Below, piece by piece: positions 21,143-63,946 of a DNA stretch of 64,000 bases; position 1 is the first letter of the stretch; each line of letters begins with the position of its first letter. Under the pieces are notes generated by a model. That model saw nothing but the letters and a program-made list of their open reading frames with translations. It did no database searches and was not told the DNA's origin. Source of the DNA: Crambe crambe (taxonomy: Eukaryota > Porifera > Demospongiae > Poecilosclerida > Crambeidae); assembly GCA_963924555.1 (NCBI GenBank), contig OZ004581.1, forward strand, positions 4,999,338-5,063,337, in the 5' to 3' direction. A program made the translations under genes and the position numbers.

Positions 21143-22686
21143 AAGCTTTTATTTTGTTAGGAAGCTTGGAAAACTGAGGGAGCCCCATATCACTGACAGC
21201 TTTTATTTTGCTAGGAAGCTTGGAAAATTGAGAGAGCCCCATATCACTGACTGGTCCCTATAGCAAAAGCTTTTATTTTCTAGGAAGCTTGGAAAATTGA
21301 GGGGGCCCCATATCACTGACTGGTCCCTATAGCTTTTATTTTGCTAGGAAGCTTGGAAAATTGAGGGAGCCCCATATCACTGACTGGTCCCTATAGCAAA
21401 AGCTTTTATTTTGCTAGGAAGCTTGGAAAATTGAGGGGGCCCCATATCACTGACTGGTCCCTATAGCAAACACTTTTATTTTGCTAGGAAGCTTGGAAAA
21501 TTGAGGGAGCCCCATATCACTGACTGGTCCCTATAGCAAAAGCTTTTATTTTGCTAGGAAGCTTGGAAAATTGAGGGAGCCCCATATCACTGACTGTCCC
21601 TATAGCTTTTATTTTGCTAGGAAAATTGAGGGAGCCCCATATCACTGATGGTCCCTATAGCAAAAGCTTTTATTTTGAAAATTGAGGGGGCCCCATATCA
21701 CTGACTGGTCCCCATAGCAAAAGCTTTTATTTTGCTAGGAAGCTTGGAAAATTGAGGGAGCCCCATATCACTGACTGTCCCTATAGCTTTTATTTTGCTA
21801 AGAAAATTGAGGGAGCCCTATATCACTGATGGTCCCTATAGCAAAAGCTTTTATTTTGAAAATTGAGGGGGCCCCATATCACTGACTGGTCCCTATAGCA
21901 AAAGCTTTTATTTTGCTAGGAAGCTTGGAAAATTGAGGGGGCCCCATATCACTGACTGGTCCCTATAGCAAAAGTTTTTATTTTGCTAGGAAGCTTGGAA
22001 AATTGAGGGAGCCCCATATCACTGACTGGTCCCTATAGCAAAAGTTTTTATTTTGCTAGGAAGCTTGGAAAATTGAGGGGGCCCCATATCACTGACTGGT
22101 CCCTATAGCAAAAGTTTTTATTTTGCTAGGAAGCTTGGAAAATTGAGGGGGCCCCATATCACTGACTGGTCCCTATAGCAAAAGTTTTTATTTTGCTAGG
22201 AAGCTTGGAAAATTGAGGGGGCCCCATATCACTGACTGTCCCTATGGCTTTTATTTTGCTAGGAAAATTGAGGGAGCCCCATATCACTGATGGTCCCTAT
22301 AGCAAAAGCTTTTATTTTGAAAATTGAGGGGGCCCCATATCACTGACTGGTCCCTATAGCAAAAGCTTTTATTTTGCTAGGAAGCTTGGAAAATTGAGGG
22401 AGCCCCATATCACTGACTGTCCCTACGGCTTTTATTTTGCTAGGAAAATTGAGGGAGCCCCATATCACTGATGGTCCCTATAGCAAAAGCTTTTATTTTG
22501 AAAATTGAGGGGGCCCCATATCACTGACTGGTCCCTATAGCAAAAGCTTTTATTTTGCTAGGAAGCTTGGAAAATTGAGGGAGCCCCATATCACTGACTG
22601 GTCCCTATAGCATGCAAAAGCTTTTATTTTGCTAGGAAGCTTGGAAAATTGAGGGGGCCCCATATCACTGACTGGTCCCTATAGCC
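21143..22686. repeat. 70-bp satellite array inside the pogo-type element
   Basis: The unit is 70 bp: ggtccctatagcaaaagc, ttttattttgctaggaagct, tggaaaattgaggg(g/a)g, ccccatatcactgact. About 24 units follow head to tail. Shorter variants of about 54 bp lack the aagcttgg segment, and they alternate with full units in a repeating order (for example 21530-21700, 21710-21880, 22200-22360), which is a higher-order structure. Each unit carries AAAAGCTTTT and GGGGCCCC palindromes. No coding capacity. Confidence 0.9.
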
Positions 22687-23017: not shown

Positions 23018-25465
23018 TTAAATGATACAATAGGGACAGAACAACTCTTTTCCCTCTTCATCAACCAGCCTCTCCTCTGCACAATCTTCATGGAGCCATC
23101 TACCACATGTACAAGAAATCCAGTCTGTACCAGCACCACTGATGACATCGTCATTGTAGTTCTGAAAACACATACAACACACATTCGGATCTATTTCTTC
23201 TCCCTCCTCATGACAATTTTTCTTTGGTGGTGGCACCTCAGTATGCAAGGACTTGCGCTTCTGTCCAGTCTCTACCCTATGTGTAATCACGCTAGAACTG
23301 GAACCAGCTGAAGCAGCCGACTTTTTTTCTCGCTTTTTTCCGTTGGGAATCTTCCTCCTTCTGTTTTCTTTTTTGTTCTTTTTCACGGGCTTTTCTCTCC
23401 TGCTCTTCTTCCCTCAATTTCTTCTTCCTCTCTCTTTCTTCTGCTTTCTTAGCTGCTTCCTGTTTTTTCAACTGCCTCTTCTCTTCCCTTTCTTTCTTCT
23501 TCCTCTCTCTTTCTTCCAACTCTTGCTTTTTCTTTTTCTCCTTCTCCTCCAAAATAGCTAAAGACGACATACTTGTTAAGAGTCTTGCTCGTGGAAGGTT
23601 TTTATACACACTAGGAGTGGAACTCTGAGGTGGTGTGATGAATTTGGATAATGAGGAAGTAGAACTACTACTGGATGCTGAACCTGGGGTCACTCTAGTT
23701 GGTGTTGAAGGAGTAACAGATGTGGTTGTGTTCACAGATGGGGTTGAAGGAGCCTGGGAAGTTTCCAGTTTCTTCACATCAGATGGCCTTGAGGGAGGTA
23801 AACTGGAGCTATCAGTAGATTTCTGTAGAATTTCAGGATGATTAATCTCAAGCCAGCTAACATAGTCTTCATCAACAAAGATATCGTACCCCTCATCAAT
23901 ACGCTTCTGAAACAGATCTTCCTGCTCCTTGCTAAAATGGTGAGAAATTGGTGTTTCTACAGTAACTGATGAGAAATGATCTGATATTGAAGCACTAAAT
24001 TTTCTGGGTTATCACTGGAATGTAACGTCTCTGGATGGTTGACATGAAGCCAACAAACGTAATCATCATCAGTATAAATATCATAACCTTCAGCAAAACG
24101 TTTCTGGAATAGTTCTTCTTGCTCTGTGCTGAAATTGGTTTCACTATCACCAGATGACTCTCCAGATTTTTTGCTTTCATCTTCTTCAGTGCTGTCTTTT
24201 GCTGAGCTGGGAGCAGTAGATGGGGGAATTTTGACTGCAGAACGATTAAGTGGGTACACACCAGATGTCTTGAATCCAGCCATGACATTGGCAGGAGTAA
24301 CAGCAAGCAGCCAAGCTTGCGAAAAGAGGGAGTTGAAGGTGAATTTTGTTATTACCCGACCTGGATTCTTCTGTGTGAAGTTGTGACACACCTTGCTCCA
24401 CTGAGTTTTAAGCGGTTTAAAAACACCAGTGTCCAAAGGTTGAGTCTCATGGGTGGTGTGGGGTGGTAAACACAGCATTACCACATCGTTGTTCCTTGCA
24501 TACCGAATAAGATCTGGTTGGTAGTGAGTGCTGTGACCATCAAGCAGAAGAAAGAGTGGTCGCTTGGACACAGCATATTCCAAGAAATGTTCAGTCAACC
24601 ATGATTGAAAAAGTTCAGTAGTTATCCATCCCTTTTCACTCGAACCATATTTCGTACCTGGAACTTCATCAACTGTCCAAGCATGATTGAAGTTTTTTGT
24701 ATCAAATATCACCAATGGAGGAATCACTTGACCAGCGGCATTTCCACATGCTACAATCGTTACTTGCCCCTTCTTCCCAGACGATCGATAACAAACTTTC
24801 TTAACTCCTCTCTTTGTAACAATATTAGGAGCCTTAGGATCCAGAGGCATCCCAGTTTCATCAACATTGTACAATCGAGAGGGAGAATCCAGCAGGTTAT
24901 GCTCCTTGAGTGTATTCTCAAGGAGGTTAAAGTATTGCTTCATAGTGTCTTTGTTGATCGCATCCATACGAATATGGGCAGTGTTATCACCACGTCTAAG
25001 TGATAAATCTTTTTGCCGTTGGATGAACCGCTGCCACCACCCATGGGTGATTCGGTTGCTTCTAAGAATCCCTTTTTCATCTGCAACAGATTGAATAATG
25101 TTCATCACATCCTGCCTTGTCTTGCCATATCCTACGGCGGCACTCTCTTTCAAAAAGCTAGCAAGTTCCTTCTCCTCTTTATTGCTCAAATATGGGACAG
25201 GACCAGGTCTCTGGTCATGGGTGACTCGTCCACTTAGCCTATCTTTGAGTGATGTCTTGGGAACTCCATGATCCAATGCTGCTTGATTTACACCACTTAT
25301 CCCCGAGCTAACAGCCTCCATTGCCGATTTCATCTGATTATCAGTCCACTGCTTTCTTTTTACAGTTGGCTTGCTTGGAGATCGTAATATCGCAGGAGCT
25401 GACTTTGATCTCTTCTTCCTTTTCGTTAGACATTTTCTCTGGCTCTGGCGACGAGGCATAGTCAT
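23018..25465 (-). pseudogene. Pogo/Tigger-like DDE transposase with PHD-like C-terminus, two frameshifts
   Basis: ATG at 25465 opens 502 uninterrupted residues. A Psq-type helix-turn-helix lies at about 43-80 (QMKSAME ... GVPKTSLKDRLSG). A second DNA-binding region follows at about 85-165. The DDE_1 catalytic core runs from about 195 to 400, with D202 (NVDETG), D309 (LLLDGHSTH) and D345 (QPLDTG), a DD35D spacing with all three acids kept. The first frame ends at 23957 after a motif EQExLFQKRxxEGYDI...DYVxWLxxNHPExL. A shifted frame then repeats the same motif (23955-23830) and continues as a Ser/Thr-rich and Lys/Glu-rich coiled region to about 23330. A run of seven A at about 23332 marks the second shift. 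The last frame ends with a PHD-like finger (CCMCFQNY ... WISCTCGRWLHEDC ... FCPYC). Such fingers are common at the end of invertebrate pogo transposases. The catalytic part may still be functional; both shifts could be sequence errors. Confidence 0.8.
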
Positions 25466-41163: not shown

Positions 41164-44100
41164 ATGCCCTCAAAAGAACAAAAGAAAAAGGCTAATAGGA
41201 GAGAAGCTAATAGAAGGTACTACCAAAAAAATAAATTTTCCTTAAATGCACAATCACGAGAATATAATGTAGTTCACAAACAGGAATTAAGGGCACGATC
41301 ACAAAAATATAATATAACTCACAGACAAGAATTGAAAGCACGATCAAAACAATACAATAGAGCTCACAGACAGGAATTGAAAGTGCTATCACAAAAATAT
41401 AAAATAACTCACAGACAGGAAATGAAAGTACAATCACAAGAATACAATAGAGCTCATAGACAAGAATTGAAAGCACGATCACAAGAATACAATAGAGCTC
41501 ATAGACAAGAATTAAAAGTACGATCACAAGAATACAATATAGCTCATAGACAAGAATTGAAAGTACGATCACAAGAATACAATAGAGCTCATAGACAAGA
41601 ATTGAAAGTACGATCACAAGAATACAATAGAGCTCACAGACAAGAATTGAAAGTACGATCACAAGAATACAATAGAGCTCACAGACAAGAATTGAAAGTA
41701 CGATCACAAGAATACAATAGAGCTCATAGACAAGAATTAAAAGCTAAAGCACATAAATACAATAGAGGTCACAAAAAACAATTAAGTGCTTATTACAGGC
41801 AATACTATAAAATAAATAGCACTCACATCAAAACAGCTCAAAGACATTACTACTCTATTCATAAAGATAAGAAAATGGTTGCGGTTAGGAAATATCAGCT
41901 AAGAAATGCCAGGAAGATTTTGAAGTGGGCAAGAAAGTATTATGCTGAGCATCGTGCACGCATTGGTGCTAACAGGAGGCGAAGGTATGAACTTACTGAG
42001 CCTAAGCCTCTTACTAAAGAAAATTATATCAGAGAAATAACCAAAAAATTAATCAGTAATAGTCATGCCTCTAGACAAATGCTGCAGTCCTTTAAAGATC
42101 AGCATGAAAAAATAGCTCTTAAAATGACTGCAGCAACCTCTAGACGAGCTGCATCCTCTATAGCAGCTACAAGGTTGGTGAACAAGGTGCTGCAGATACG
42201 AAGGCATCTAGCTGGCTCCTTGTTAAAAATGGTAAGAGCAATTAATAAACTAAGCATATCCACTGAGAGTGATTTGGGTGAGGGTTCACATTGTGTTCAT
42301 GGTGAACCATATTATTATGAAAGTTCCTATGTTCATAATAGACCAAGCATTATTTGTATTGATGAGCATGGAAAATATAGATTGCTTGATGATGGCAAAA
42401 ATACCGTGGAGCATGTGGTTCCACGCTCATGGAAATGCAATGACACATGTAGGACTCTATCACAATCTGATTTGTCATGCATTATTGAATTCAAATCAGT
42501 ATTTAACGAGTCCCTGCAGAAAATACGTAAAGTTTTGGATGAGTGTGATGAATGTCCAAATAGCAAGTATGCTAAGGTAATCATTGTCCCAGCAAATGAG
42601 CCTGATAGTAACGTAGTACACTATAACTCTGTGGAATTAAAGGGACATAGTTTGATCTGTCACATTGGCAGTGATTGCAAAAGTAAGCTGAGAATCCTAA
42701 GAGCAGCATCGACTCACTATCCTGTGTTGAGGTCGTTCTTAAGATGTGTGTACTCAGCATTAAATAGCCATAAAAATATTGCTTCCCTTGATGAAGCTCT
42801 ACACCGTGGAGACTTTAACAGCTTAATGAGGGATTTTGAAATCACCTTTGATGATCTATTCAGTAATGAAGTCAATCTGTCTCATGAGCTTGAAAGTAGT
42901 TTCGCAAAATGTGTGCTTAGAAGACCAGATTTAGAAAAGCACCTTCAAATAGAGCACGCCGAAGTGATGGCAAAATATAAAAAAAAATTAGAAGATTATC
43001 CTCAGAATCCTTGCTGTAGCTGTAATATGCTCTTTTGTCTCAAGCAAGGCTCAAAAATTACTTTCAGTACAGAACTCGGCAACGTGTGGCCGGATTTAAA
43101 AGATTTCATCCTTAAGGATGACCCTAATGCTTCAAAAAAGACTCTGTTCATATGCACGTATTGCAGGTCTTATTTGAGGTCCAATAAAATGCCACCAAGA
43201 TGTGTGCTCAATGGTTTACAAACCTCTCCAATACCCAGAGAGCTGAGCGTGTTGGATGAGTTGAGCAAACAGCTCATTCAACGAGCGAAAGCTTTTCAAA
43301 CTATAGTCAGGTTGGGCACTTATACAAACAAGGTGCCATCCTACAATTCGCTTAAAGCCTGTAAGGGTAACATGTTTTTCTTACCCCTACCCCTGGACAA
43401 GACTCTAGAGACTCTTGATGGGGTTGAAGGATCTCTTGCTAACCCTGAACTTTACATTATAGTGAACAGTAAGCCCACCAAAGGCAATGTAGTGTGGCGA
43501 AGCTTAGTAGATGTAAATCAGGTAAAGGTTGCTATCAAGAAGTTAAAAGAGTGCAACTGGCTCTACAAAGATGTCTGTGATGAATCTGTAGACTCTGCTG
43601 CCAAGGAGGTTATTGAAGTGGTAAGTAATACCTCTAGTACTGTGCTGGAAAAAGCCTCAAGTAGTGATATTGCTGGGTTCCAGTGCTACACACTGAGAGA
43701 TATGAATGACAAACTCTCCACCAAAGATGACCTACAACAATATAAAATGCTAAGCGTGCAAGAGGAACCTTTGAGTAGCACTCAAAGGCACCTCGATACC
43801 ATGTGTTTCCCAGTCCTCTTTCCGGACGGAAACTTTGGTAAGTACCACCCTAGACAGGTGCCAGTATCCCACAGTGAATACGATAAGTCCCGTCTGTGGA
43901 ACAATGACTCTCGCTTTAGAAAAGACCCTCAGTATGTCTTTTATCTCCTAAAGGAGAAGGAGTCAAGGGAGTTAAAAGCTGGTGTGTATAATTTGCTTAA
44001 GACATCAAAATCCATTCCCACAACAGTGACTAACATTCTCCAGAAGGTCACAGCCAGTGACCAAAAACTGGAAGCTAACCTGTCCACTATGTTTCAGTCC

Positions 44101-47100
44101 ATTCGTGGCACGAAACAGTATTGGTACAGGAGGAAGGGTGAATTAATGTGCATGTTGCGGGAACTGGGGCCTCAAAGCCTATTCCTAACCTTCAGCTGTG
44201 CAGAATATGAGTCACCTGACATAGCTGAGTACCTAAGAATTGTCAACAATGTTCCAGACAAATACAGCATTAATAAACTCTCCACTGAGGATCCTGTTTC
44301 GGTATCGAGGCAGTTTTCTCACAAATTTCATGCCTTCTTTCAGGCATTCATTGTAAAGGGTGAAGTCCTGGGTCCAGTAGAGCACTTTTACTGGAAAAAA
44401 GAGTACCAGGCACGTGGAGCACCACACTATCATGCGGTCCTATGGATAAAGGATGCACCAATTATAGGTAAAGATGATCCAGATGTGGTGCTGTCCTGGA
44501 TTCAGGAAAGAATCACTTGCCACATTCCTGACAAGGAAAACAATCCAGAACTGCACCACATGGTTACAAGGTACCAGTTGCACAAGTGCAGCGATTACTG
44601 TAGAAAGAAATGCAAGCGTGGGTCTGTGTTTCTAACTACGTGCAAGTTTGGATTTCCACGTCCAGAAAGAGAAAGTGCTGTTATAAATAATGTAGATTCC
44701 AGCTGTAAAAAGTTCCAAAAAATATGTGAAATAGCACGAGCACCTAGCGAAGTAAGGGTTAATGATTACAATCCCTTGCTTCTTCTGAACTGGGGGGCAA
44801 ATATGGATATACAATTTGTGGGTGACAGGGACATGGTTGTATCCACTTATGTCAGTGGATATGTTACCAAATATGAGCATGGTCACCTGCAAGAGCAGTA
44901 TGAGGGCATTACAGATGACAAGAGCCTATGCAGCAAGCTTTTCAGTATTGGCCGCATGTTCTTAAAGTCTCGTGAATGCGGAATGCATGAAGCTGCTGAC
45001 CACTTGAGTGGAGACCACCTCTATGAGAAATCTGTTGCCATTCAATGGGTTGATGTTCGCATGCCTCACAAAAGGCAGCGTAGGGTAAAAACGCATGCCC
45101 AGTTGTTAAAAATGAAATCGGAAGATCCGGAGAGTGAAAATATATTTACTCATAATTTCCTATCCACTTACTACCCACAAAGACCTGACGACTTGGAGGA
45201 CATCTGCCTTCATGACTTTGTTGCCAATTACAGCTGGCATGAAACAGACCATAAGGGGGACAGAATATACAGGAAACTCAACAAACCTCGATTGGTCAAC
45301 CACAAAATGTTTGATCCTGCAAAACAGGAAAACAGAGAAGATTACTATTACTCTCTGATTCTTCTCTTTGTACCCTTCAGAGATGAGGGTGCTCTTCTAA
45401 GAGAAAATGAAACTGCTGAAGAAGCTTTCAATCGTCTCCTGCCCCACAGTGATGATTGTTCCAATTATCACAGGAGGCTACAGACGATGCTCAATGCTGA
45501 GACTAAGGTGAGAAAAATAAATGAAGCAAGAAAGGCAGAAATCATGAAGAACTTAGAAAACAAAGAGCATGATAACATGCAGATCCTTGGAGAGGCTAAG
45601 CATGCAATGAAGGACATACAGGACATGAATCAGAAAATGCCTGACAACCTCACTCTAGAACAAAGGGAGAACATGTTGAACACCGACCAGAAAAGGGTCT
45701 ATGACACCATCCGTAATAGTTTGATACACCAGAAACAACATGAAGAGGGCCAGTGTCTCTGTGACTACAAGCCCTTTGCAATGTTTGTCAGTGGTGTAGG
45801 CGGTACTGGTAAGTCTTTCGTAATAGAGGCCGTAAAGGCATTAGTTGACAGCTTATGGACGTCAGAGGGTTTGAAGTGTGCTATCACTGCGCCCACTGGC
45901 TTGGCTGCGTTCAATGTTGGAGGTGTGACCATACACAGGCTGTTCCAGTTGCCTATCGAACACGAGGGCAAGGAAGCTGGCTATTGGTCACTGTCAAAGG
46001 ATGCTCAGAAAGTGATGAAAACGACACTTCGTTCCCTTAAGTTGCTTGTCATTGATGAAGTGTCCATGGTGTCAAGTCTAAACTTGACCTATGTGCACAT
46101 GAGAATGCAAGAAATCTTTGGGGAAGATCACTGGTTTGGAGGAAAGAATGTCCTCTTTGTTGGGGACTTACTCCAACTCCAACCAGTCAATGGCAACCCT
46201 GTGTTTGAAAAAATGAGTAGGGCTGCCATTGTCCACAAGTTAGGATGCATTGGATCAATAAATATCTGGAAAGACTGTGTCCGTTATGACGAGCTCACAA
46301 TTAACGAAAGACAGAAAAAAGACAGTCAGTTCTCTGATATTCTAGGTAAAGTGAGATGTGGTGGTCTCGCAAAAGAGATTCTTACAATTCTGAAAGAGCG
46401 CGTTATTAATGTTCCAGTAGTTGAAAAGCTGGTGCAACTGCAGGAGTCGGGAAAAAATCCCGTGTGCCTGTTTCCAACCAGAAAACAGTGTGATGTGCTC
46501 AATGAGGAAATGCTGCGCAACTTGGAGTCAGAAGTGCATGTCATACCATGCGCCGATGACGTAGACGAGACGCGAAGCACTGCAAAATGGCACCAAAAGG
46601 CAGCCAAACAACTTGAAAAGCTAAATCAGGACTGCAACAACACTGCAGGGTTGGAAGCTGTCCTGAAGTTGGCCGTGGGTGCCCGTGTAATGCTCAGGCG
46701 AAACATTGATGTTAAAGCAGGTTTAGTGAACGGTGCCATCGGCACCGTCCTTGGCGTGTTCTCAGAAAGAGTTTCAATCAAATTTGACCACTTAGAGAGC
46801 ACCTGTGATATTGAAAAAATAAAGGGAAAGTTCATGGTACTTAAGAGTTATTATGTGTCCCGTACCCAATTTCCTTTAATCTTGGCCTATGGGGTTACCA
46901 TCCATAAATGCCAGGGCCTGTCGTTAGACTGTGCTATCGTAGATCTGTCAGACAAGGTATTTGCAGATGGGATGGCCTATGTAGCACTCTCAAGAGTGAG
47001 GTCTCTAAATGGACTGTACCTGACTGCATTTGATGCACAATCCATTCGGGTAAGCAAAAATTGTGTAGCAGAAGTAAACAGGTTGAGACAATTGTTTAGA

Positions 47101-48435
47101 AAAGATCTCCCTCTTTATGAAACTCCAACTGCATGTGTCTCCAGAAAAAGAAAGCTCACCGGCACGTGTGATGTGGAGCCACAATCAAAAAAGATATGTG
47201 GTCCCACAACGAAAAAGCTTCAGCCTGAGCCTAAGTCAAAATCAGCAAGGTCTCAGTCTCGCCAGAAGAAAGTATGGCCGTTCAAATTCCACTCTGTGGA
47301 TGAACAGTGGCAACGTACTGCTTGCCACTCACTGAACATAATTTTTAAGCAAAAAAATACAATATTTCAGGGAAGTGGGGAAAGACCGCTGACACGTCCA
47401 GACATGAGAAGGGTGAAGAGAGTTAAGGGTGACGGAAATTGCATGTTCCGAGCCCTCTCTCTAGTGGTGACTGGGAGTGAAGACCAGCATCATGCCATTC
47501 GTACTAGAATAGTGGAGCACATGAGAAGTATTGCCCACCTCATGCTGGGACACATCAAGAGTCATACTGGTTTTAATACTTGCCAGAATATTGATGAGTA
47601 CTTGCAGAAAAGCAAAATGGCTGAATGTAACACTTGGGGATCCGACATTGAATTACTGTGCTTTGCACACTTATGTAAAGTATGTGTGTTCTCTTATTCT
47701 ACAGAATCAAGCAACTGGGACAGATATGGTCCCAATAATGTTGACAGAACAATAACTGTAGATGTGACCGCAAAGTCCATATACCTGTTTCACCCTTCTG
47801 GCCATTATGATGTAGTGGGATCCACTCTAAAGCCTCCAAACTCTACACCAGACTGGTTGGAACAATCCAGAAACACTGAGGTATGGAATGATCTAAGGTT
47901 TCACTCTGTTGACTCAGAGTGGCAGTTGGAAGCTTGTAATTTACTAGGCTTGCCATTACACGGTCCAAATGGTGTGAGCCCAGGTGGCCCCAATTTAGCC
48001 ATAACACGTCCTGCTTCTTATAAATCAATCCAAGGAGATGGTAATTGTCTGTTCAGATCCCTTTCATACCTAATAACAGGCTCATATTGTCACTACAGAG
48101 AAGTCCGTGAAAGAATTATAGACCACATGCGAAATGTATTTGAGCCGGTTTATGTTAGTGATTATTTAAGGAGCACTAACATGGACCAAGATGGGATTTG
48201 GGGGACTCATAATGAAATTACAACTCTCTCACATTTACTGAGAACCCCAATATATACTTTTGTGCCTGATTCACATAACTGGGTCAGAATAACTCCTGAG
48301 GCAATGGATCAGGACTTTATCATTCCAATGACGCAAAAGGCAATGTATTTAGAGAATCACAGGAATCATTTCAATGTGGTTATGACTGTGAAACCAATCC
48401 CTAATATTAGTAGTGACCCTATCGAAATAGATTAA
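41164..48435 (+). CDS. Helitron Rep/PIF1-like helicase with two OTU domains
   Basis: One uninterrupted frame of 2423 codons encodes a rolling-circle transposase. Residues about 30-209 are twelve tandem 15-residue repeats (RSQEYNRAHRQELKV type), very basic and helical. A Cys-rich segment and a DUF6570-like region (SPIPRELSVLDELSKQLIQR) follow to about 800. The Helitron N domain contains LGPQSLFLTFSCAEYESPD. The Rep site has H1088-Y-H1090 (metal binding) and tyrosines Y1229, Y1233 and Y1237 in STYVSGYVTKY. The SF1B helicase has Walker A GVGGTGKS (1544-1551), DEVSM (from 1631), GDLLQLQPVNG and a C-terminal TIHKCQGLSLD and AYVALSRVRSL. Two OTU-type cysteine protease domains end it: D2090/C2093 with H2214, and D2292/C2295 with H2402. 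The intact frame implies recent activity. The TC and CTRR ends of the transposon were not fixed. Confidence 0.93.
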   Translation: MPSKEQKKKANRREANRRYYQKNKFSLNAQSREYNVVHKQELRARSQKYNITHRQELKARSKQYNRAHRQELKVLSQKYKITHRQEMKVQSQEYNRAHRQELKARSQEYNRAHRQELKVRSQEYNIAHRQELKVRSQEYNRAHRQELKVRSQEYNRAHRQELKVRSQEYNRAHRQELKVRSQEYNRAHRQELKAKAHKYNRGHKKQLSAYYRQYYKINSTHIKTAQRHYYSIHKDKKMVAVRKYQLRNARKILKWARKYYAEHRARIGANRRRRYELTEPKPLTKENYIREITKKLISNSHASRQMLQSFKDQHEKIALKMTAATSRRAASSIAATRLVNKVLQIRRHLAGSLLKMVRAINKLSISTESDLGEGSHCVHGEPYYYESSYVHNRPSIICIDEHGKYRLLDDGKNTVEHVVPRSWKCNDTCRTLSQSDLSCIIEFKSVFNESLQKIRKVLDECDECPNSKYAKVIIVPANEPDSNVVHYNSVELKGHSLICHIGSDCKSKLRILRAASTHYPVLRSFLRCVYSALNSHKNIASLDEALHRGDFNSLMRDFEITFDDLFSNEVNLSHELESSFAKCVLRRPDLEKHLQIEHAEVMAKYKKKLEDYPQNPCCSCNMLFCLKQGSKITFSTELGNVWPDLKDFILKDDPNASKKTLFICTYCRSYLRSNKMPPRCVLNGLQTSPIPRELSVLDELSKQLIQRAKAFQTIVRLGTYTNKVPSYNSLKACKGNMFFLPLPLDKTLETLDGVEGSLANPELYIIVNSKPTKGNVVWRSLVDVNQVKVAIKKLKECNWLYKDVCDESVDSAAKEVIEVVSNTSSTVLEKASSSDIAGFQCYTLRDMNDKLSTKDDLQQYKMLSVQEEPLSSTQRHLDTMCFPVLFPDGNFGKYHPRQVPVSHSEYDKSRLWNNDSRFRKDPQYVFYLLKEKESRELKAGVYNLLKTSKSIPTTVTNILQKVTASDQKLEANLSTMFQSIRGTKQYWYRRKGELMCMLRELGPQSLFLTFSCAEYESPDIAEYLRIVNNVPDKYSINKLSTEDPVSVSRQFSHKFHAFFQAFIVKGEVLGPVEHFYWKKEYQARGAPHYHAVLWIKDAPIIGKDDPDVVLSWIQERITCHIPDKENNPELHHMVTRYQLHKCSDYCRKKCKRGSVFLTTCKFGFPRPERESAVINNVDSSCKKFQKICEIARAPSEVRVNDYNPLLLLNWGANMDIQFVGDRDMVVSTYVSGYVTKYEHGHLQEQYEGITDDKSLCSKLFSIGRMFLKSRECGMHEAADHLSGDHLYEKSVAIQWVDVRMPHKRQRRVKTHAQLLKMKSEDPESENIFTHNFLSTYYPQRPDDLEDICLHDFVANYSWHETDHKGDRIYRKLNKPRLVNHKMFDPAKQENREDYYYSLILLFVPFRDEGALLRENETAEEAFNRLLPHSDDCSNYHRRLQTMLNAETKVRKINEARKAEIMKNLENKEHDNMQILGEAKHAMKDIQDMNQKMPDNLTLEQRENMLNTDQKRVYDTIRNSLIHQKQHEEGQCLCDYKPFAMFVSGVGGTGKSFVIEAVKALVDSLWTSEGLKCAITAPTGLAAFNVGGVTIHRLFQLPIEHEGKEAGYWSLSKDAQKVMKTTLRSLKLLVIDEVSMVSSLNLTYVHMRMQEIFGEDHWFGGKNVLFVGDLLQLQPVNGNPVFEKMSRAAIVHKLGCIGSINIWKDCVRYDELTINERQKKDSQFSDILGKVRCGGLAKEILTILKERVINVPVVEKLVQLQESGKNPVCLFPTRKQCDVLNEEMLRNLESEVHVIPCADDVDETRSTAKWHQKAAKQLEKLNQDCNNTAGLEAVLKLAVGARVMLRRNIDVKAGLVNGAIGTVLGVFSERVSIKFDHLESTCDIEKIKGKFMVLKSYYVSRTQFPLILAYGVTIHKCQGLSLDCAIVDLSDKVFADGMAYVALSRVRSLNGLYLTAFDAQSIRVSKNCVAEVNRLRQLFRKDLPLYETPTACVSRKRKLTGTCDVEPQSKKICGPTTKKLQPEPKSKSARSQSRQKKVWPFKFHSVDEQWQRTACHSLNIIFKQKNTIFQGSGERPLTRPDMRRVKRVKGDGNCMFRALSLVVTGSEDQHHAIRTRIVEHMRSIAHLMLGHIKSHTGFNTCQNIDEYLQKSKMAECNTWGSDIELLCFAHLCKVCVFSYSTESSNWDRYGPNNVDRTITVDVTAKSIYLFHPSGHYDVVGSTLKPPNSTPDWLEQSRNTEVWNDLRFHSVDSEWQLEACNLLGLPLHGPNGVSPGGPNLAITRPASYKSIQGDGNCLFRSLSYLITGSYCHYREVRERIIDHMRNVFEPVYVSDYLRSTNMDQDGIWGTHNEITTLSHLLRTPIYTFVPDSHNWVRITPEAMDQDFIIPMTQKAMYLENHRNHFNVVMTVKPIPNISSDPIEID
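41251..41790 (+). repeat. 45-bp coding tandem repeat in the Helitron N-terminus
   Basis: Twelve in-frame 45-bp units (cgatcacaagaatacaatag, agctcacagacaagaattga, aagta) encode the 15-residue repeat. The central units are almost identical and the edges drift, which points to recent unequal exchange. On the opposite strand this makes a long hydrophobic open frame that is only a shadow. Confidence 0.92.
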
Positions 48436-54368: not shown

Positions 54369-55080
54369 GTAGCTACATACCTTGGGGAGATAAGGCAGGA
54401 ATTGATTAAGACTACCGGTACTGATGTACATAAAAGCACAATTGGTAGATTCCTACATTTGTCTGGCTTCACTAGGCAAAAAATGGTTACCACTGCGCTA
54501 CAAAGAAGCAACCTATTAAGATGTCAATACCTTATTGATATGTCCATCTACCAAGGTCACCCAGAACTATTTGTTTTTGTTGATGAGACTGGTGCTGACC
54601 GACGTGATAGTATGAGAAAATTTGCGTACAGCATGAGAGGTCAACCAGCTGTTGTTAGCAAATTAATGGTTCATGGGCAACGGGTCTCAGCCATTGTGGG
54701 AATGTCCTGTGATGGAATACTTGACTTCATTACAAGTAAATCCACAAATACCAGCCTAAGCTTTTTCCACTACATCGAGAAAGCACTAGTGCCTTACCTA
54801 CAGCCATTTAATGGTGTCAATGCACGGAGTGTAGTTGTGTTGGACAATACACCATACTTCACCAGTAGTGCTAAACACAGGAGCTCTAGTGCAGTTCCTC
54901 CCCCCCTACAGCCCCGATCTGAACCCAATAGAGTTGGTTTTTTCTAAAGTCAAATCAGTTATGAAAGCAAATGAAACAGTTTGGGGTGATTATGATGCTG
55001 AGACTACACTAACTGCAGCTCTCGGTACAGTTATAAAGTCTGACTGTGAAGGCTGGATTGCACACTGTGGGTACATGTAA
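54369..55080 (+). pseudogene. IS630/Tc1-like DDE transposase, frameshifted
   Basis: The frame is open from 54369 without an early ATG, so the DNA-binding N-terminus is lost or on another exon. It has a helix-turn-helix tail (VHKSTIGRFLHLSGFTRQKM), the first catalytic D in FVFVDETGADRRD, and the second in VVVLDNTPYF, where the usual N-x-x-x-H of the family is changed. A frameshift between about 54855 and 54890 leads to the last box PPYSPDLNPIELVFSKVKS in another frame, ending at TAA 55078-55080. This is the IS630-Tc1 family, which cuts and pastes DNA at TA. It is probably inactive. Confidence 0.85.
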
Positions 55081-56492: not shown

Positions 56493-56981
56493 GCCCCGTT
56501 TACACGTAGGATTCAAACCGGTGTCATAAAGTTTTGGGGACCCCGTAGTTCTAGGGACCCCCCATCCCTAAAACTACCATAGATATGGGGACCCCCTCAT
56601 AGATATAGGGACCCCCCCACCCCCAATCCTCGCGCGCTTTATACAGCATTGGACAAAAGTGAGGGAGAGCAAAATATTCAGTTCAAGCTGGGTAAGTTAG
56701 CCTAGCTATAGCTAATACATCATGTAAACTGTTTTAAGGCAGAGTTCGAGGCTGTCATATGGACCACAGTTTCGATCATAGCCAAGTTTGATACAATACA
56801 AATATATACATTATCCTAGCTTGCATTAATTCTTATTCATATTTTAATCATTACTACAACAACTACTATTATTTTCATAATTATATTTTATTTTATAATA
56901 ATACTTATAGTAGTAATAAAATTATAATAAATACTACTACTAATAATAATAGGTAATAATGATAATAATAATAATAATAAC

Positions 56982-57048
<67 letters not shown>

Positions 57049-57190
57049 GGTCAGATTCCTCTATATACCATACTTTCAGCAAAAATCCAAAATGAAAAGT
57101 ATAGATTTAACAACCTCCAATAATATCTGTAGATTCAACAACACCTATAACAGCACAAAAGGGTTACTATTGTACATTCAATAATGGAGT
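56493..57190. repeat. Simple-sequence tract and start of the satellite region
   Basis: Positions 56530-56630 hold repeated gg(g)gacccc / atagatatgggga words akin to the satellite that follows. A long (AAT)n microsatellite with few interruptions lies at 56950-57048. Confidence 0.8.
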
Positions 57191-59500
57191 GGGTCCCCAT
57201 ATTTACAAAAGGGCCTAAATTTTGGATGAGATACATATCATAGATTTGGGATGGGATCCCATCCTGATGCAGATTGTAGTTCTCTATGCAGATAGTCTCA
57301 TGTAGCTGTATATATAGCCAAGAAAGCGGTTGCTGAATATCTTATCATCGTATGTATGTTGATCAAAGGATATCTCATAGCTATACATAGTTAGATGTAT
57401 TCTCCATTGTAGATATGGGGACCCCGTCCCCAAAATTAATGTATATGGATCAAAGGATATTACATACAGAGATATAGGTACTATTCTCCATTGTAGGGAT
57501 CAAAGGATATCTCATACATAGATATGGGTACCATTCTCTATTCTCCATCTGTAGATATGGGGACCCCATCGTACTATGTTGATCAAAGGATATCTCCATT
57601 CTCCATTGTAGATGTATCCCCAATATTTGTTGATCAAAATATCTTCACCATTCTCCATCTGTAGATATGGGGACCCCATCGTATGTATGTTGATCAAAGG
57701 ATATCTCATAGCTACATAGCTGGATACGTATATATTACCATTCTCCATTGTAGATATGGGGACCCCGTCCCCAAAATTAATTAATGTATACTGATCAAAG
57801 GATATTACATACACAGATATATATTGTAGATATGGGGATCCCTAAATGTATATTGATCAAAGGATATCTCATTCTCCATTGGACCCCATCGTACTATGTT
57901 GATCAAAGGATATCTCATACACAGATATAGGTACCATTCTCCATTGTAAATGTATGGGGACCCCATCCCAATCAAAACAATTATCTCATTCATGAATCTA
58001 CACGATTCTCCATCTGTAGATATGGGGACCCCATCCCCAAATGTACTTTGATCAAAGGATATCTCATCCAGGTACCATATACTCCATCGTAGATATGGGG
58101 ACTCCATCATATGTGTTGATCAAAGGATATCTCATTCACAAATCTACTCATCGTAGATATGGGGACCCCATCGTATGTATGTTGATCAAAGGATATCTCA
58201 TAGCTATACATAGCTAGATGTATAGTTACCATTCTCCATTGTAGATACGGGGACCCCGTCCCCAAAATTAATGTATATTGATCAAAGGATATTATATACA
58301 CAGATATAGGTACCATTCTCCATTGTAGATATGGGGATCCCCCAAATGTATATTGGTCAAAGGATATCTCATACATACCATTCTCCATTGTAGATACATA
58401 GATAGAGGTACTATTCTCTATCTGTAGTTATGGGGACCCCGGCCCATCGTACTATGTTGATCAAAGGATATCTCATACTTTGATCAAAGTACATTCGGGG
58501 ATGGGATCCCCATATCTACAGATGGAGAATGGTACCTAGCTATATCTAGATGAGGTATCTTGTTTGATCAATATACATTGATTTTGGGGATGGGGTCCCC
58601 ATATCTAGGATGGAGTAGCTATGGTGCATACCTAGCTAATATCAATGTAGATTCGTGGATGAGATATCCTTTGATCAACACAGTCCCCATATCTACAATG
58701 GAGTATGGTACGCACCTAGTTGAAGATTCGTGGATGAGATATCCTTTGATCAAAGTACATTTGGGGATGGGGTCCCCATATCTACAGATGGAGAATGGTG
58801 TAGATTTGTGAATGAGATATTTTGATCAACAAATTTTGGGATGGGGTCCCCATACATCTACAATGGAGAATGGGATATCTCATCCACGAATCTTCATAGA
58901 TATAGCTAGGTACCCCCAAATGTATACTGATCAAAGGATACCACTCTCTGGGACCCCATTAATATCTCATCCATGAATCTACACCATTCTCCACCTGTAG
59001 ATATGGCCATGAATCTTCATTATTATTATTGGAACCAACCATAGATATGGGGATCCCATCCCTAAATGTACGTTGATACCTCATCATAATATTCCTAGAT
59101 ATGGGGACCCCACCCCCAAATTTATGTTGATCAACATATCTCATCCACGAATCTATTTATCATGGAATCCTTAATCTGTAGATATGGGGACCTCATCTCA
59201 TCCACATAGATATAGGTACCATTCTCCATCTGTAGATATGGGGACCTCATCATGTTGATCAAAAGATATTTCATCGACGAATCTTGGATTGTATGTTGAT
59301 CAAAGAATATCTCATCCACGAATCTACATAAGTATAGGTATCATTCTCCATTGTAGATATAGGTACCATTCTCCATATCCCAGTTGATAAAGATATAAAT
59401 TTACATACATGTAGATATAGGTACCATCTCCATCTGTAGATATGGAGACAGTCTCCATATCTACAGATGCAGAATGGTACCTATATCTTATATCTTTTTT
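57191..59500. repeat. Irregular satellite array with orientation switches
   Basis: A composite unit of about 70-100 bp recurs: accattctccat(c)tgtaga, tatggggaccccatc, tgttgatcaaaggatatctc, atacacagatataggt. From 57400 to about 58480 it reads forward, from about 58480 to 58880 it is inverted (gatgggatccccatatctac, gatggagaatgg, gatgagatatcctttgatca), and from 58890 to 59460 it is forward again. Many open frames here are by-products of the repeat. It ends about 400 bp upstream of the integrase-USP gene. Confidence 0.9.
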
Positions 59501-59916: not shown

Positions 59917-62900
59917 ATGCATGTCAACTCGTGCGTCGTGATGGAAGGAAAATTTAGTTTCAGACAAATCTTTGACTACATCAACTCTGGATTCTATCCA
60001 GAGGGTTTGGAAAAACAAGATAAACTCTCTTTACGGAAAAGAGCGAAATACTTTATCATAGAGGAAGCTCAGCTCTACTATGTTGGGGGTAAAATTATTA
60101 CTATTAAAATAGTCTAAATCAGTAGCTAGTTTCATTTATAGGAAAGAGAACAGTTCCACCAAGGCTGGTGATTGAAAATGTTGATCAACAAAAGAGAATC
60201 ATATCAGCAATTCATGATGCCAACCATCTGGGATTAAATAGGACTTATGATCTCATTTCTAAAAAATATTACTGGCCTTTGATGTACAAAGAAGTTTCAG
60301 CATATGTAAGTGTTAGCACTAAAGTGTTAGCACTAAAGTGTTAGAATATTTTACCACTGTCACATTCATATAGGTTCAGACATGCAATCAGTGCCAAAGA
60401 AGTAATAAAAAATTAAGGAAAGAAAGTGGTACACTTCATCCTATTCCTGTCACATCTCAATTATGGAGCCAAATAGGAATGGACCTCATAGGACCACTAC
60501 CTCAGACTCCTCGTGGCTACAAATATATTATTACAATTACTGATTACTTTTCCAAGTGGGCTGAAGCTGCCCCTCTTACAGATAAAACTGCTGGAAATGT
60601 TGCTAAATTTGTGTACAGTGTGAGTTTTTCACCATAAACTTAAAATATAAATATTTACACTAATTAATTTGTAGTGCTTATGCACTGACAAAGCTATTTT
60701 TGGTGCAGGCTTGAACATGCTTATGCACTGACAAAGCTATTTTTTGGTGCAGGCTTGAACGTGCATGCATGCTTATGCACTGACAAAGCTATTTTTGGTG
60801 CAGGCTTGAACATGCTTATGCACTGATAAAGCTATTTTTGGTGCAGGCTTGAACATGCTTAGCTAAAGCATTATTTTTCATGCTGCAGACTTGAACTTGA
60901 ATAGTGAATGTGCCTCTGATGTATATTACTGTGTTTAATGTGAACAGGTGATGTGTCGATATGGTTGCCCAGAAGTCTTAATCACTGACCAAGGAAAGGA
61001 ATTCGTGAATGATCTCTCAGCACAGCTCTACTCTATGACAAATACTGAGCATAGAATCACCACTGCCTACCATCCACAGGTGTTTTATATACATGTACAT
61101 ATTATCCAAGTTCGCTATCTTACCTATAGTTATATTGTTTATAGACCAATGGGCTCACAGAGCGTTTCAATCAGACTCTTACCAGATGCCTGGCTAAAAT
61201 GTGTAATCAAGATCATAATGACTGGGATGAGAAGATTGATACCATTTTAATGGGATATCGGGCATCAAGTCAAGCCTCGACCAAACACTCCCCTTACTTC
61301 ATGTTATTTCAAAAAGAGATGCGTCTTCCAATTGATAACGAAATAATTCCTATAGGAAATATTATTGAAGAAGGAGATTTGGACAAGACAATGGAGATTT
61401 TATTACAGAAGAAGAAAGAATTATTTCAAAAAGTTGAGAGCAATATAAAAATATCCCAGCAAAAGCAAAAGGAGACCTATGACAGAAAGCATCTCCCCAA
61501 GGAATTGGCTCCTGGAACCGAAATCCTGATTGAAAATACTGCTCAAAAAGAAAGAAAGGGAGGAAAGTTGGATGATGCATTTCTAGGACCATATACAATT
61601 CATAAAAGTTTAGGGAAAGGTATATACAAGGTTATGAACCAGAAAGGTGTGATTCTTAAAAAGAAAGTGAATATCAGCAGGATAAAAATGTACAAGAAGA
61701 GAGATGAATCCATGGTAATGCACCCCATTATCCATTATAGCTAGTTAGCTAGCTACCTTTCCAAAGTAAAAGACTTTAGCAAATTCTTAATTGCACCAAT
61801 GCAGCCTCCTCCATCACCCTATCAGCAACTTCCTCCATCTGACAAGGTGTCCCATTCCAAGGTGAAAACATGCACTTGCACTTCCAATTTCGCTAGTTCT
61901 ACCTTCATACCTTTGAACATGCTTGCAGCCTCCTCCATTATCCTACCAGCAACCTCCTCAACCATCTGACAAGGTGCCCCATTCCAAGGTGAAAACATGC
62001 ATTTCTAATTTTGCTAGTTCTACCTTCATACCTTTGAACATGCTTGCAGCCTCCTCCATCATCTTATCAGCAACCTCCTCAACCATCTGACAAGGTGCCC
62101 CATTCCAAGGTGAAAACATGCACTTCCATAGGGGGAGGAAGGTCATCTATTTTGGGTGGGCTGAGTGTAAAAAAGTGTGACCATACTAGCACGCAAAGCG
62201 TGCCATCTAAGGGGGTCTGGGGGTATTTTGGATTTTAAGCCTCGCATTCTCTGAGGTTCTAGGGTGATGTCTCAAATATTGAGGGGGCTCAGCCCCCACC
62301 TTCTGAACATTGGGGGGGGGGGGACTTTAGCCCCTCCAGCCCCCACCTTCCGCCTCCTATGACTTCTAATTTTGCTAGTTCTGCCTTCACTTTGAACATG
62401 CAGCCTCTGGATCCCCCACCACCCTATCAGCAACCACCTGACAAGCACCCCCATTCCAAGGTAAACATGTATTTCCAATTTAGTTCTGTTTTTAATATGC
62501 AGCCTTCTCTATCACCCTATCAGCAACCACTTCAACCATCTGACAAGCAGCCCCATTACAAGGTCCATAGTTATATCTCAGCCAGTCTAGACTTTATAGT
62601 GTATAGCTAATACTTCAGAAGTTTTGTGGAATTCCCAATAAAGAGAACAGCTGCTGGTTGATATCAATTGTTCAACTGCTGAATACAACAAGTTTATATC
62701 AATTCCTTTATGGTAAGTGTATTTATCGATGAGCCATTTGTGATAATAGTGTGATGTTATTAATTATAAGGAATGAAAAATATGAATCAAGTTCAGGCTG
62801 AGTATTGCAGAATTTTCAAAGCATTGAAGTGTCATCAGTCTGTCAATATTCTACTTTTGAAGGTGTGGAAGGTCATATTGATGTATGTAATGATCTTAGG

Positions 62901-63946
62901 TATAATCATTTATAGTCCATGCTCAAGCCAAGTCTTGCTAATTGTCATCATCAGGACGCTGCAGAGGGTTTGCAATCATTAACAGGCCATTTGGTTGAGA
63001 GCATTGATGTAAGTTATTGTATAGGAATTCACTCACTTATACATAGCTAATATGTAGCTATAAATGCAATTCTTTTACACATGATGATGACAGGAATACA
63101 AGTGTGACAGACTGTTTACTACATCTTATTTGACTCAATCCTATTGTACCTTTTGCCACAATGGAGGAACTCGTGAGGTATAATAATAATAATAATATAA
63201 ATGATTTTAACCTGATCCTTTAGTTCATTGATGGAGTATTGGAAAAGAATCCAATCCTTTATTGTTCGCTCGGTAATAGCCGGAAAGAAATCACTGTAGA
63301 AGATCTGATTATGTTTGATCATAACATTGATAGAGTCATAAAAGGACCAAGTGATAGGTAACAGCTATACTTGAAATTTAGTACATGCAGACTTGTTTGT
63401 ACAATCTATGGTGTATAGACAATGTTCGATCTGCCGAAACTTGGGAGGAATTCATGTATCTTCAAAGCTTAAAACTCTGCCAGAGTATTTGTCTATAGTG
63501 TGTAAGAGAACTTTAATCTATGGAAGAAAACGATCAGGACCATCCAAGCGATCTAATAGACAAGTCATTATTCAGAGGTGCTTGAATAATCATAGTTTGA
63601 CACTAATAGCTAATATGCATATGTATTACACTGTACAGGAACATAAAACTAAAGCTTGATGGTAGGACTATCGAGTATCAATTACAAGGATTTATTGTAA
63701 GTTTCTTAATGAGTATTGAAAAGAGATTATAGCGATTATACTGCAGGTACATCATGGTACTACAGTAACAAGTGGTCACTGTAAGATTGAATATTACTAA
63801 CATTGAATGAATAACTGCATAATTTGTCTTCAATATTCACAGATGATACTTATCTGACTCAGCAAACCTGTTCTTCTTTGGTCCACATTAATGATTTACA
63901 TATTTCAGAAGTGGAAGGCAATACTATTGACTCTACATATATCAAG
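59917..63946 (+). CDS. Gypsy/Ginger-type integrase fused to a USP deubiquitinase, 19 exons, 3' partial
   Basis: Exons: 59917-60088, 60142-60305, 60374-60619, 60948-61079, 61145-61714, 61805-61861, 61929-61988, 62050-62109, 62404-62460, 62503-62562, 62619-62712, 62771-62862, 62916-63008, 63094-63177, 63224-63357, 63419-63577, 63639-63696, 63747-63780, 63843-63946. All introns are GT-AG and all phases agree, giving about 810 codons before the window ends. The integrase has an HHCC finger (H82, H86, C116, C119), catalytic D149, D208 and E244 (DD35E), and a GPY module (G386-P-Y). Residues 429-526 are proline-rich repeats. From 527 a USP fold starts: Cys box IPNKENSCWL (C538), HHQDAAEGL, a zinc ribbon (C637/C640, C694/C697), His box HHGTTVTSGHY (H775) and ND in HINDLHISEV. 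The exon 12 donor could also be at 62871. A second ATG (59941) may be the true start. It is either a Ginger-type transposase or a domesticated gene. Confidence 0.82.
60676..60860 (+). repeat. Four tandem ~45-bp repeats in intron 3 of the integrase-USP gene
   Basis: Each unit is gcttatgcactga(c/t)aaa, gctatttttggtgcaggc, ttgaacatg. Each carries ttttggtgcag, which looks like a 3' splice site, although no coding frame follows it. The array accounts for much of the largest intron of the gene. Confidence 0.9.
61805..62562 (+). repeat. Array of five duplicated proline-rich micro-exons
   Basis: Exons 61805-61861, 61929-61988, 62050-62109, 62404-62460 and 62503-62562 are 57, 60, 60, 57 and 60 nt. 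Each follows a (t)gcag acceptor and ends CCAAG or ACAAG before GT, in phase 0. They encode variants of PPP-S-YQQPPQPSDK-PHSK. The introns between them are also copies (gctagttctaccttcatacc, tttgaacatgc). The whole exon-intron unit of about 121 bp was therefore duplicated as a block. The peptide would form a flexible Pro/Gln linker between the integrase and protease parts. Confidence 0.85.
62127..62361. mobile_element. 235-bp MITE in the intron between micro-exons 3 and 4
   Basis: Ends cataggGGGaggaaggt and accttccgcctcctatg are inverted copies. The target acttc is duplicated on both sides (62122-62126 and 62362-62366). The neighbouring intron copies show the uninterrupted site, so the insertion is proven by comparison inside the window. 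The interior has GC homopolymers (for example 62319-62332) and a gcacgcaaagcgtgc hairpin. Confidence 0.85.

Follow-up and report, generated by a model that had tools for sequence, protein, structure and literature searches.

The stretch analysed here, 64,000 nucleotides of the sponge Crambe crambe (the window; positions 4999338-5063337 of contig C1 in a 143-Mb assembly), contains the first 19 exons of an apparent 36-exon gene that would encode an integrase-type transposase followed by two predicted proteases, a USP and a ULP1. The gene lies within an element that is very probably a Ginger1-type DNA transposon. Its single open frame of 1,243 codons reaches 3 kb beyond the window edge, where 17 further exons end with a stop codon at extended 66973; extended coordinates carry the window numbering on along the same contig. 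The features of the element are as follows.

56518-56521, no strand: left CCGG, target-site copy (the right CCGG lies at extended 68944-68947, the last base of the element being extended 68943)
56522-56633, + strand: left terminal inverted repeat, starting TGTCATAAAG, from a gapped alignment with the reverse-complemented right end
59917-61714, + strand: exons 1-5, integrase/transposase (H2C2, DD35E, GPY), residues 1-428
61805-62562, + strand: exons 6-10, five proline-rich mini-exons of 57 or 60 nt, phase 0
62619-63946, + strand: exons 11-19, USP (C19) domain
extended 64643-64684, + strand: exon 20, end of the USP domain
extended 64930-65984, + strand: exons 23-31, ULP1/C48 domain (H927, D944, Q989, C995)
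extended 66033-66973, + strand: exons 32-36, tail without Pfam match, including the stop codon

A preliminary description of this DNA had proposed 19 phase-matched exons and 18 GT-AG introns at 59917-63946 (+), and all of these are present there with consistent phases. The integrase and the USP are read in one open frame, as had been claimed, with no stop between the parts, and the pair recurs in diverged families. The ULP1/C48 protease and the further tail, both outside the window, had been missed. Over the whole gene a single intron departs from GT-AG, a GC-AG intron after exon 27. Because splice sites were picked by us with the reading frame in view, the open frame by itself is weak evidence. 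The exon layout independently recurs in a diverged family, B, with an identity to the window copy of only 40% (integrase) to 68% (ULP1): introns with the same position and phase as in the window copy were found in 22 of 34 cases in family B copy C11a, 15 of 26 in C10 and 13 of 24 in C5. The donor of exon 24 and the acceptor of exon 25 were set from other copies, the donor chosen first having proved non-conserved. The first three mini-exons (exons 6-8) lie inside a 121-bp tandem repeat. Within the same proline-rich stretch (61805-62562), exon 9 encodes DPPPPYQQPP, a PPxY-type motif and putative site for WW-domain or NEDD4 binding.

Pfam profiles identified Integrase_H2C2 (2.8e-19), rve (3e-10) and UCH (1.5e-16; 61.2 bits against a cut-off of 23.9) in the window part of the frame. 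The UCH match falls after 62619, where the presence of a USP domain had been set beforehand as a test. The whole frame, searched as a draft model with a few residues different at exons 24-25, gave Peptidase_C48 (2.5e-22; 80.2 bits against a cut-off of 20.7), H2C2 (3.3e-18), UCH (4.3e-15) and rve (1.1e-9). The motifs named in the preliminary description were all located where it had placed them: the HHCC zinc finger (H82, H86, C116, C119), the DD35E acids (D149, D208, E244), GPY (LGPY at 385), the USP Cys box (ENSCW at 535), two CxxC pairs (CTFC at 624, CSIC at 681) and the GHY His box (SGHY at 760). The USP catalytic residues are C538, H762 and N779, and those of ULP1 are likewise in place. 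A possible YPYY region upstream of the zinc finger (FYPEG at 26, LYY at 53-55) was recognised by eye only. Among PDB sequences, the integrase matched Ty3 integrase (1.6e-26) and PFV integrase (5e-23), the ULP1 part of the draft model matched SENP5 (2.1e-22), and a four-row USP profile matched 46 USP or Ubl-hydrolase sequences (best USP14, 1.2e-7). The USP is a predicted deubiquitinase and the ULP1 a predicted SUMO protease. Pfam detected no OTU domain in the whole frame, where an Ulp1-type domain is present, and the C-terminal 201 residues had no Pfam match up to E 10.

The element carrying the gene measures 12,422 bp and is bounded by imperfect, gapped terminal inverted repeats of ~115 bp, the Ginger1 range being about 40-270 bp. 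Its ends read TGTCA...TGACA, and TGTCA at both ends fits the TGTNR of Ginger1; both ends start TGTCATAA (end pair TGTCATAA/TTATGACA). CCGG stands on both sides in all three copies that were read at both ends (C1, C14 and C6), while their outer flanks differ. The C14 and C6 copies measure 12,241 and 16,509 bp, and blastn aligned C1 with C14, with gaps, from 56517 to 68947. The 22-base end without CCGG has 80 exact occurrences in the genome (40 forward, 40 reverse; 0 for a reversed-pattern control), 61 of them preceded by CCGG. Within 20 kb, these terminal sequences pair inward in 25 cases (548-16,509 bp) and never outward, and a single neighbour runs in the same direction; 18 of the inward pairs, spanning 548-1,861 bp, most likely represent non-autonomous derivatives. 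Four close copies (C14, C6, C8 and C3), which together with the window copy are spread over five contigs, have integrases 98, 99, 95 and 100% identical to that of the window over aligned residues. The window copy has no stops or frameshifts and is the sole one of the five with all 36 exons open. The inverted repeats, the two-sided CCGG and the multiple copies therefore point to a Ginger1-type DNA transposon. This bears out the comparison with Ginger made in the preliminary description, and the genome search it had proposed, for copies with inverted repeats and a 4-bp target duplication, yielded the four close copies and the CCGG flanks. We also considered a gypsy retrotransposon integrase misread as a gene and rejected it: the ends are inverted repeats, and Pfam found no reverse transcriptase (long terminal repeats were not searched for). 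Positions 56895-59400, between the left end and exon 1, are crowded with direct and inverted repeats built around 'GATATGGGGACC' and 'GATCAAAGGATATC'; C14 and C6 have these as well, and they are possibly transposase-binding subterminal repeats.

Related loci were sorted into families: A comprises the window copy and its close copies, B, E and F are diverged, and C and D are of an Ulp1+PHD type. Loci were read with a custom spliced protein-to-DNA aligner, each case being controlled with one reversed and four 3-mer-shuffled DNA sequences. Seven family B copies were available, three of them read from the integrase on (C11a, C10, C5) and four in part (C11b, C16, C9, C6b). For C11a, the integrase, USP and ULP1 scored 679, 806 and 572 (controls 79-130; for the USP, 95-122), and the alignment covers residues 15-1237 with 603 of 1188 identical; C10 aligns over 4-983 and C5 over 2-983. 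Identity of C11a to the window copy is 40% in the integrase, 63% in the USP, 68% in ULP1 and 53% in the tail; for integrase, USP and ULP1 the values are 41, 61 and 63% in C10 and 40, 64 and 61% in C5. Damage in family B amounts to two stops and three frameshifts in C11a (all in the integrase), one stop in C10, and three stops and four frameshifts in C5. ULP1 comes after the USP in each of the seven diverged USP loci checked, all of family B. Family E (C13 copy) has the order integrase-USP-ULP1-tail, with scores of 291, 586 and 324 for the three domains against controls of 75-129, and its aligned part is free of stops and frameshifts; a probable second copy, at G000:C5:7077330-7080502, is known from search matches alone. 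Family F (C9:4370) joins an integrase to a USP; its reading is interrupted by one stop and three frameshifts. As read from these alignments, the order integrase-USP-ULP1 is shared by the older, diverged families B and E, and integrase-USP by F. In families A, B, E and F the catalytic Cys and His of the USP are kept wherever they align; B_C6 has nothing aligned at the Cys position. As third catalytic residue the copies have Asn or Asp, apart from B_C5 with Ile. The family B USP carries GHYTAY...HFND. A Peptidase_C48 search of the same genome returned eight matches, none at the integrase-USP-ULP1 loci, which it missed probably because their exons are short. Pattern searches for relatives of the USP gave 147 matches in viral contigs and 161 in bacterial and archaeal genome contigs, none of which was confirmed.

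Between families, the protease domains appear constrained. The ratio of nonsynonymous to synonymous substitution (dN/dS) for the window copy against the seven B copies is 0.12-0.14 in the USP and 0.08-0.21 in ULP1, values that are rough because dS is about 1.5-3.1, near saturation; for the integrase, dS between A and B is saturated. Within B, USP dN/dS spans 0.13-0.92, a spread expected if copies decay after insertion.

The integrase and the tail have conflicting histories. Integrases of families C (C1:5345) and D (C9:2644, C14:1724) are 58-69% identical to that of the window, compared with 40-41% for B. Family C, at 69%, is a Ginger1-type element with a tail of Ulp1 (C48, 9e-5) and a PHD finger (3.9e-8); in one frame of the C9 copy of family D, the end of an Ulp1 and a Cys/His pattern resembling that of a PHD finger were seen by eye only. 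USP scores did not exceed controls in C (128 against 129-157) or clearly separate from them in D copy C9:2644 (101 against 83-108), and the SENP-like ULP1 of the window aligned with the Ulp1 of the local Ulp1+PHD family over only 28 aa (E 0.001). An integrase tree of 14 rows, all local sequences and including four gypsy-like outgroup rows, placed A, B, C, D and F in one clade against the outgroup (100/100), with the groupings A+C+D (98/99), A+C (87/90) and B+F (100/99); E (too diverged), A_C6, C3 and other gypsy rows were left out. In an approximately unbiased (AU) test, monophyly was rejected for the seven USP rows (p 0.018) but not for the C and D rows (p 0.065). These two groups had been defined only once a first tree had been inspected, and the tree program gave a warning of long branches. 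Because the integrases nearest that of the window carry an Ulp1+PHD tail without detectable USP, the tail appears to have been replaced or exchanged, and the whole tail was probably replaced at least once. Either A acquired its USP-ULP1 tail by transfer, or C+D exchanged that tail once for Ulp1-PHD, the AU test not being decisive between the two. A recent swap is not needed to explain why A and B share 40% of the integrase and 63% of the USP; a difference in rate suffices, because in B, too, the integrase is the less conserved part (86% identity, against 94% for the USP, between C11a and C5).

Taken together, these results favour a Ginger1-type cut-and-paste DNA transposon with one visible gene, encoding an integrase-type transposase, a USP, a ULP1 and a tail, in which the proteases would have a protective role. 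We consider this explanation as a whole probable, and its anatomical part, the structure of the element and its gene, highly probable. Several observations weigh against it. A single polypeptide from the whole gene is assumed, and the USP matched single PDB sequences weakly (best 4.5e-4). All four close copies are damaged by stops, frameshifts or lost exons, so that present-day activity is unproven: spliced alignment gave stops and frameshifts of 1 and 2 in C14, 0 and 3 in C6, 4 and 4 in C8, and 2 and 3 in C3, some of which may be alignment artefacts, and C3 is without exons 6-12 and part of exon 5. Within-family dN/dS values run higher, with much noise (window copy compared with C8: integrase 0.33, USP 0.47, ULP1 0.41), reaching 1.1-1.5 in places in C14 and C3 on very few changes. 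Two of the four H2C2 residues are missing in the alignment of the family E integrase, ULP1 was not seen in the ~0.9 kb examined past the USP of family F, and neither CCGGTGT nor ACACCGG was found in the 13.2 kb of C11 examined for family B ends. The transposon status of B, E and F thus rests on copy number and domains, because their ends were not found. The element is also larger and richer in introns than Ginger1 as described in the excerpted text of Bao et al. (PMC2836005), at 12.4 kb and 35 introns compared with 2.6-7 kb and 0-4 introns.

The intact reading frame of the window copy, alone of five in having every exon open, and the purifying selection seen in the USP and ULP1 when families are compared would also suit a domesticated host gene, in which a transposase has been joined to USP and SENP domains of the host and retained for a function in the cell. 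The whole gene is enclosed by inverted repeats and CCGG, however, near-identical copies lie on five contigs, the 25 inward end pairs include 18 at 0.5-1.9 kb, and family B copies likewise diverge and decay; we therefore regard domestication as very improbable, and the single-copy host gene built from a transposon that the preliminary description had entertained finds no support in a multi-copy element with inverted repeats. It is also distinctly unlikely that the transposon contains two or three adjoining genes, with the USP-ULP1 part transcribed separately from the transposase. Such an arrangement would fit the linker at 61714-62619, the least conserved part (26-34% identity over 63-84 codons against six B copies), and the one-gene model was built on splice sites of our choosing. 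Against it, classical Ginger1 proteases are also fused C-terminally, according to the excerpted account of Bao et al. (2010; PMC2836005). Moreover, the window copy reads from one part into the next without a stop, each of the five linker exons is symmetric (phase 0, with a length that is a multiple of 3), and C14 and C6 differ in the linker by an in-frame 9-nt change in exon 9.

In the favoured explanation, a one-gene Ginger1-type transposon, the proline-rich linker would join a Gypsy-integrase-type transposase to a USP (C19), a SENP-like ULP1 (C48) and a conserved tail. As expected from Gypsy-type integrases and other Ginger1 elements, the N-terminal part would bind the inverted repeats at the element ends and perform strand transfer, joining the element to CCGG sites. 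The USP and ULP1, being on the same chain, could free the transposase, or proteins at the donor or target site, of ubiquitin and SUMO, and the complex would thereby escape degradation, eviction or silencing until transposition or repair is done. We put this shielding of the transposition complex from ubiquitin and SUMO control forward tentatively, at somewhat below even chances. SUMO-targeted ubiquitin ligation is a means by which cells remove or degrade proteins bound or crosslinked to DNA and establish silent chromatin. That one chain with a deSUMOylase and a deubiquitinase undoes this SUMO-then-ubiquitin relay locally, as a cassette moved between Ginger1 integrase lineages, is a rather doubtful extension; if true, the USP-ULP1 pair would be a transferable counter-defence module. 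That transposons carry Ulp1, OTU and VTD proteases has long been a hint that ubiquitin or SUMO limits transposition. A protein with two proteases that differ in predicted specificity, alongside sister families that have a similar integrase and another tail, offers a natural comparison, the two predicted activities being separable in assays, and the conflict between integrase and tail indicates that protease tails are replaceable parts. Somewhat less likely than shielding of the complex, though still conceivable, is that the proteases target host defence, removing SUMO and ubiquitin from factors that silence chromatin, whether at the element or in the germ line. This proposal draws by analogy on the VTD deubiquitinases of Helitrons, described as active in the excerpted text of PMC9741609, whose authors speculate on overcoming limits to male-germline inheritance of transposons.

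The window holds other mobile elements. At 41164-48435 (+), an open frame of 2,423 aa with Helitron_like_N, a PIF1 helicase and two OTU stretches marks a Helitron with tandem OTU proteases, and many OTU matches occur elsewhere in the genome in open frames of 2.2-2.5 thousand residues. A 502-aa frame at 23957-25465 (-), with DDE_1 and a Psq helix-turn-helix, is presumably a pogo/Tigger-like transposase. A DDE_3 fragment of another transposase lies at 54402-54947 (+; Pfam 3.1e-12), and a 1.5-kb tandem array with a unit of 70/140 bp at 21198-22685.

GIN transposons are reportedly the subject of a 2010 study by Marin. Several known systems share parts of the architecture described here, as far as the excerpted sources go. 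The Trichomonas vaginalis protein XP_001314237.1 (transposase_11 and Peptidase C19; PMC2836005) likewise has a USP-type domain on a DNA transposase; compared by description only, it belongs to another transposase family in a protist, and ULP1 is unmentioned in that excerpt. Mutator elements with Ulp1 (cited in PMC2836005) carry a SUMO-protease domain in a DNA transposon on a different transposase, the excerpt making no mention of a USP. Helitrons with VTD and OTU (PMC9741609) contain deubiquitinase domains, sometimes of two kinds per element, but are rolling-circle elements with other protease families. A literature search that included excerpts of PMC12863088, PMC3424704 and PMC6431247, with Repbase and NCBI proteins outside its scope, found no Ginger with a USP or with two kinds of protease, the T. 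vaginalis protein coming nearest; unpublished or unindexed Ginger-USP examples elsewhere are likely enough. The closest comparison is Ginger1 itself, described by Bao, Kapitonov and Jurka (2010; PMC2836005) with TGTNR ends, CCGG (or CCGT) targets and an H2C2-DDE-GPY transposase bearing, in the excerpted text, a C-terminal OTU or Ulp1, never both; these proteases were proposed to act in transposition or repair. The element described here agrees in its TGTNR ends, in CCGG copies (75% there, 61/80 here), in GT-AG introns, and in an N-terminal H2C2, DDE and GPY transposase with a C-terminal protease domain. The Ginger1 kind is thus known, and what would be new relative to its described members is the added USP domain, which places two different proteases in one predicted protein.

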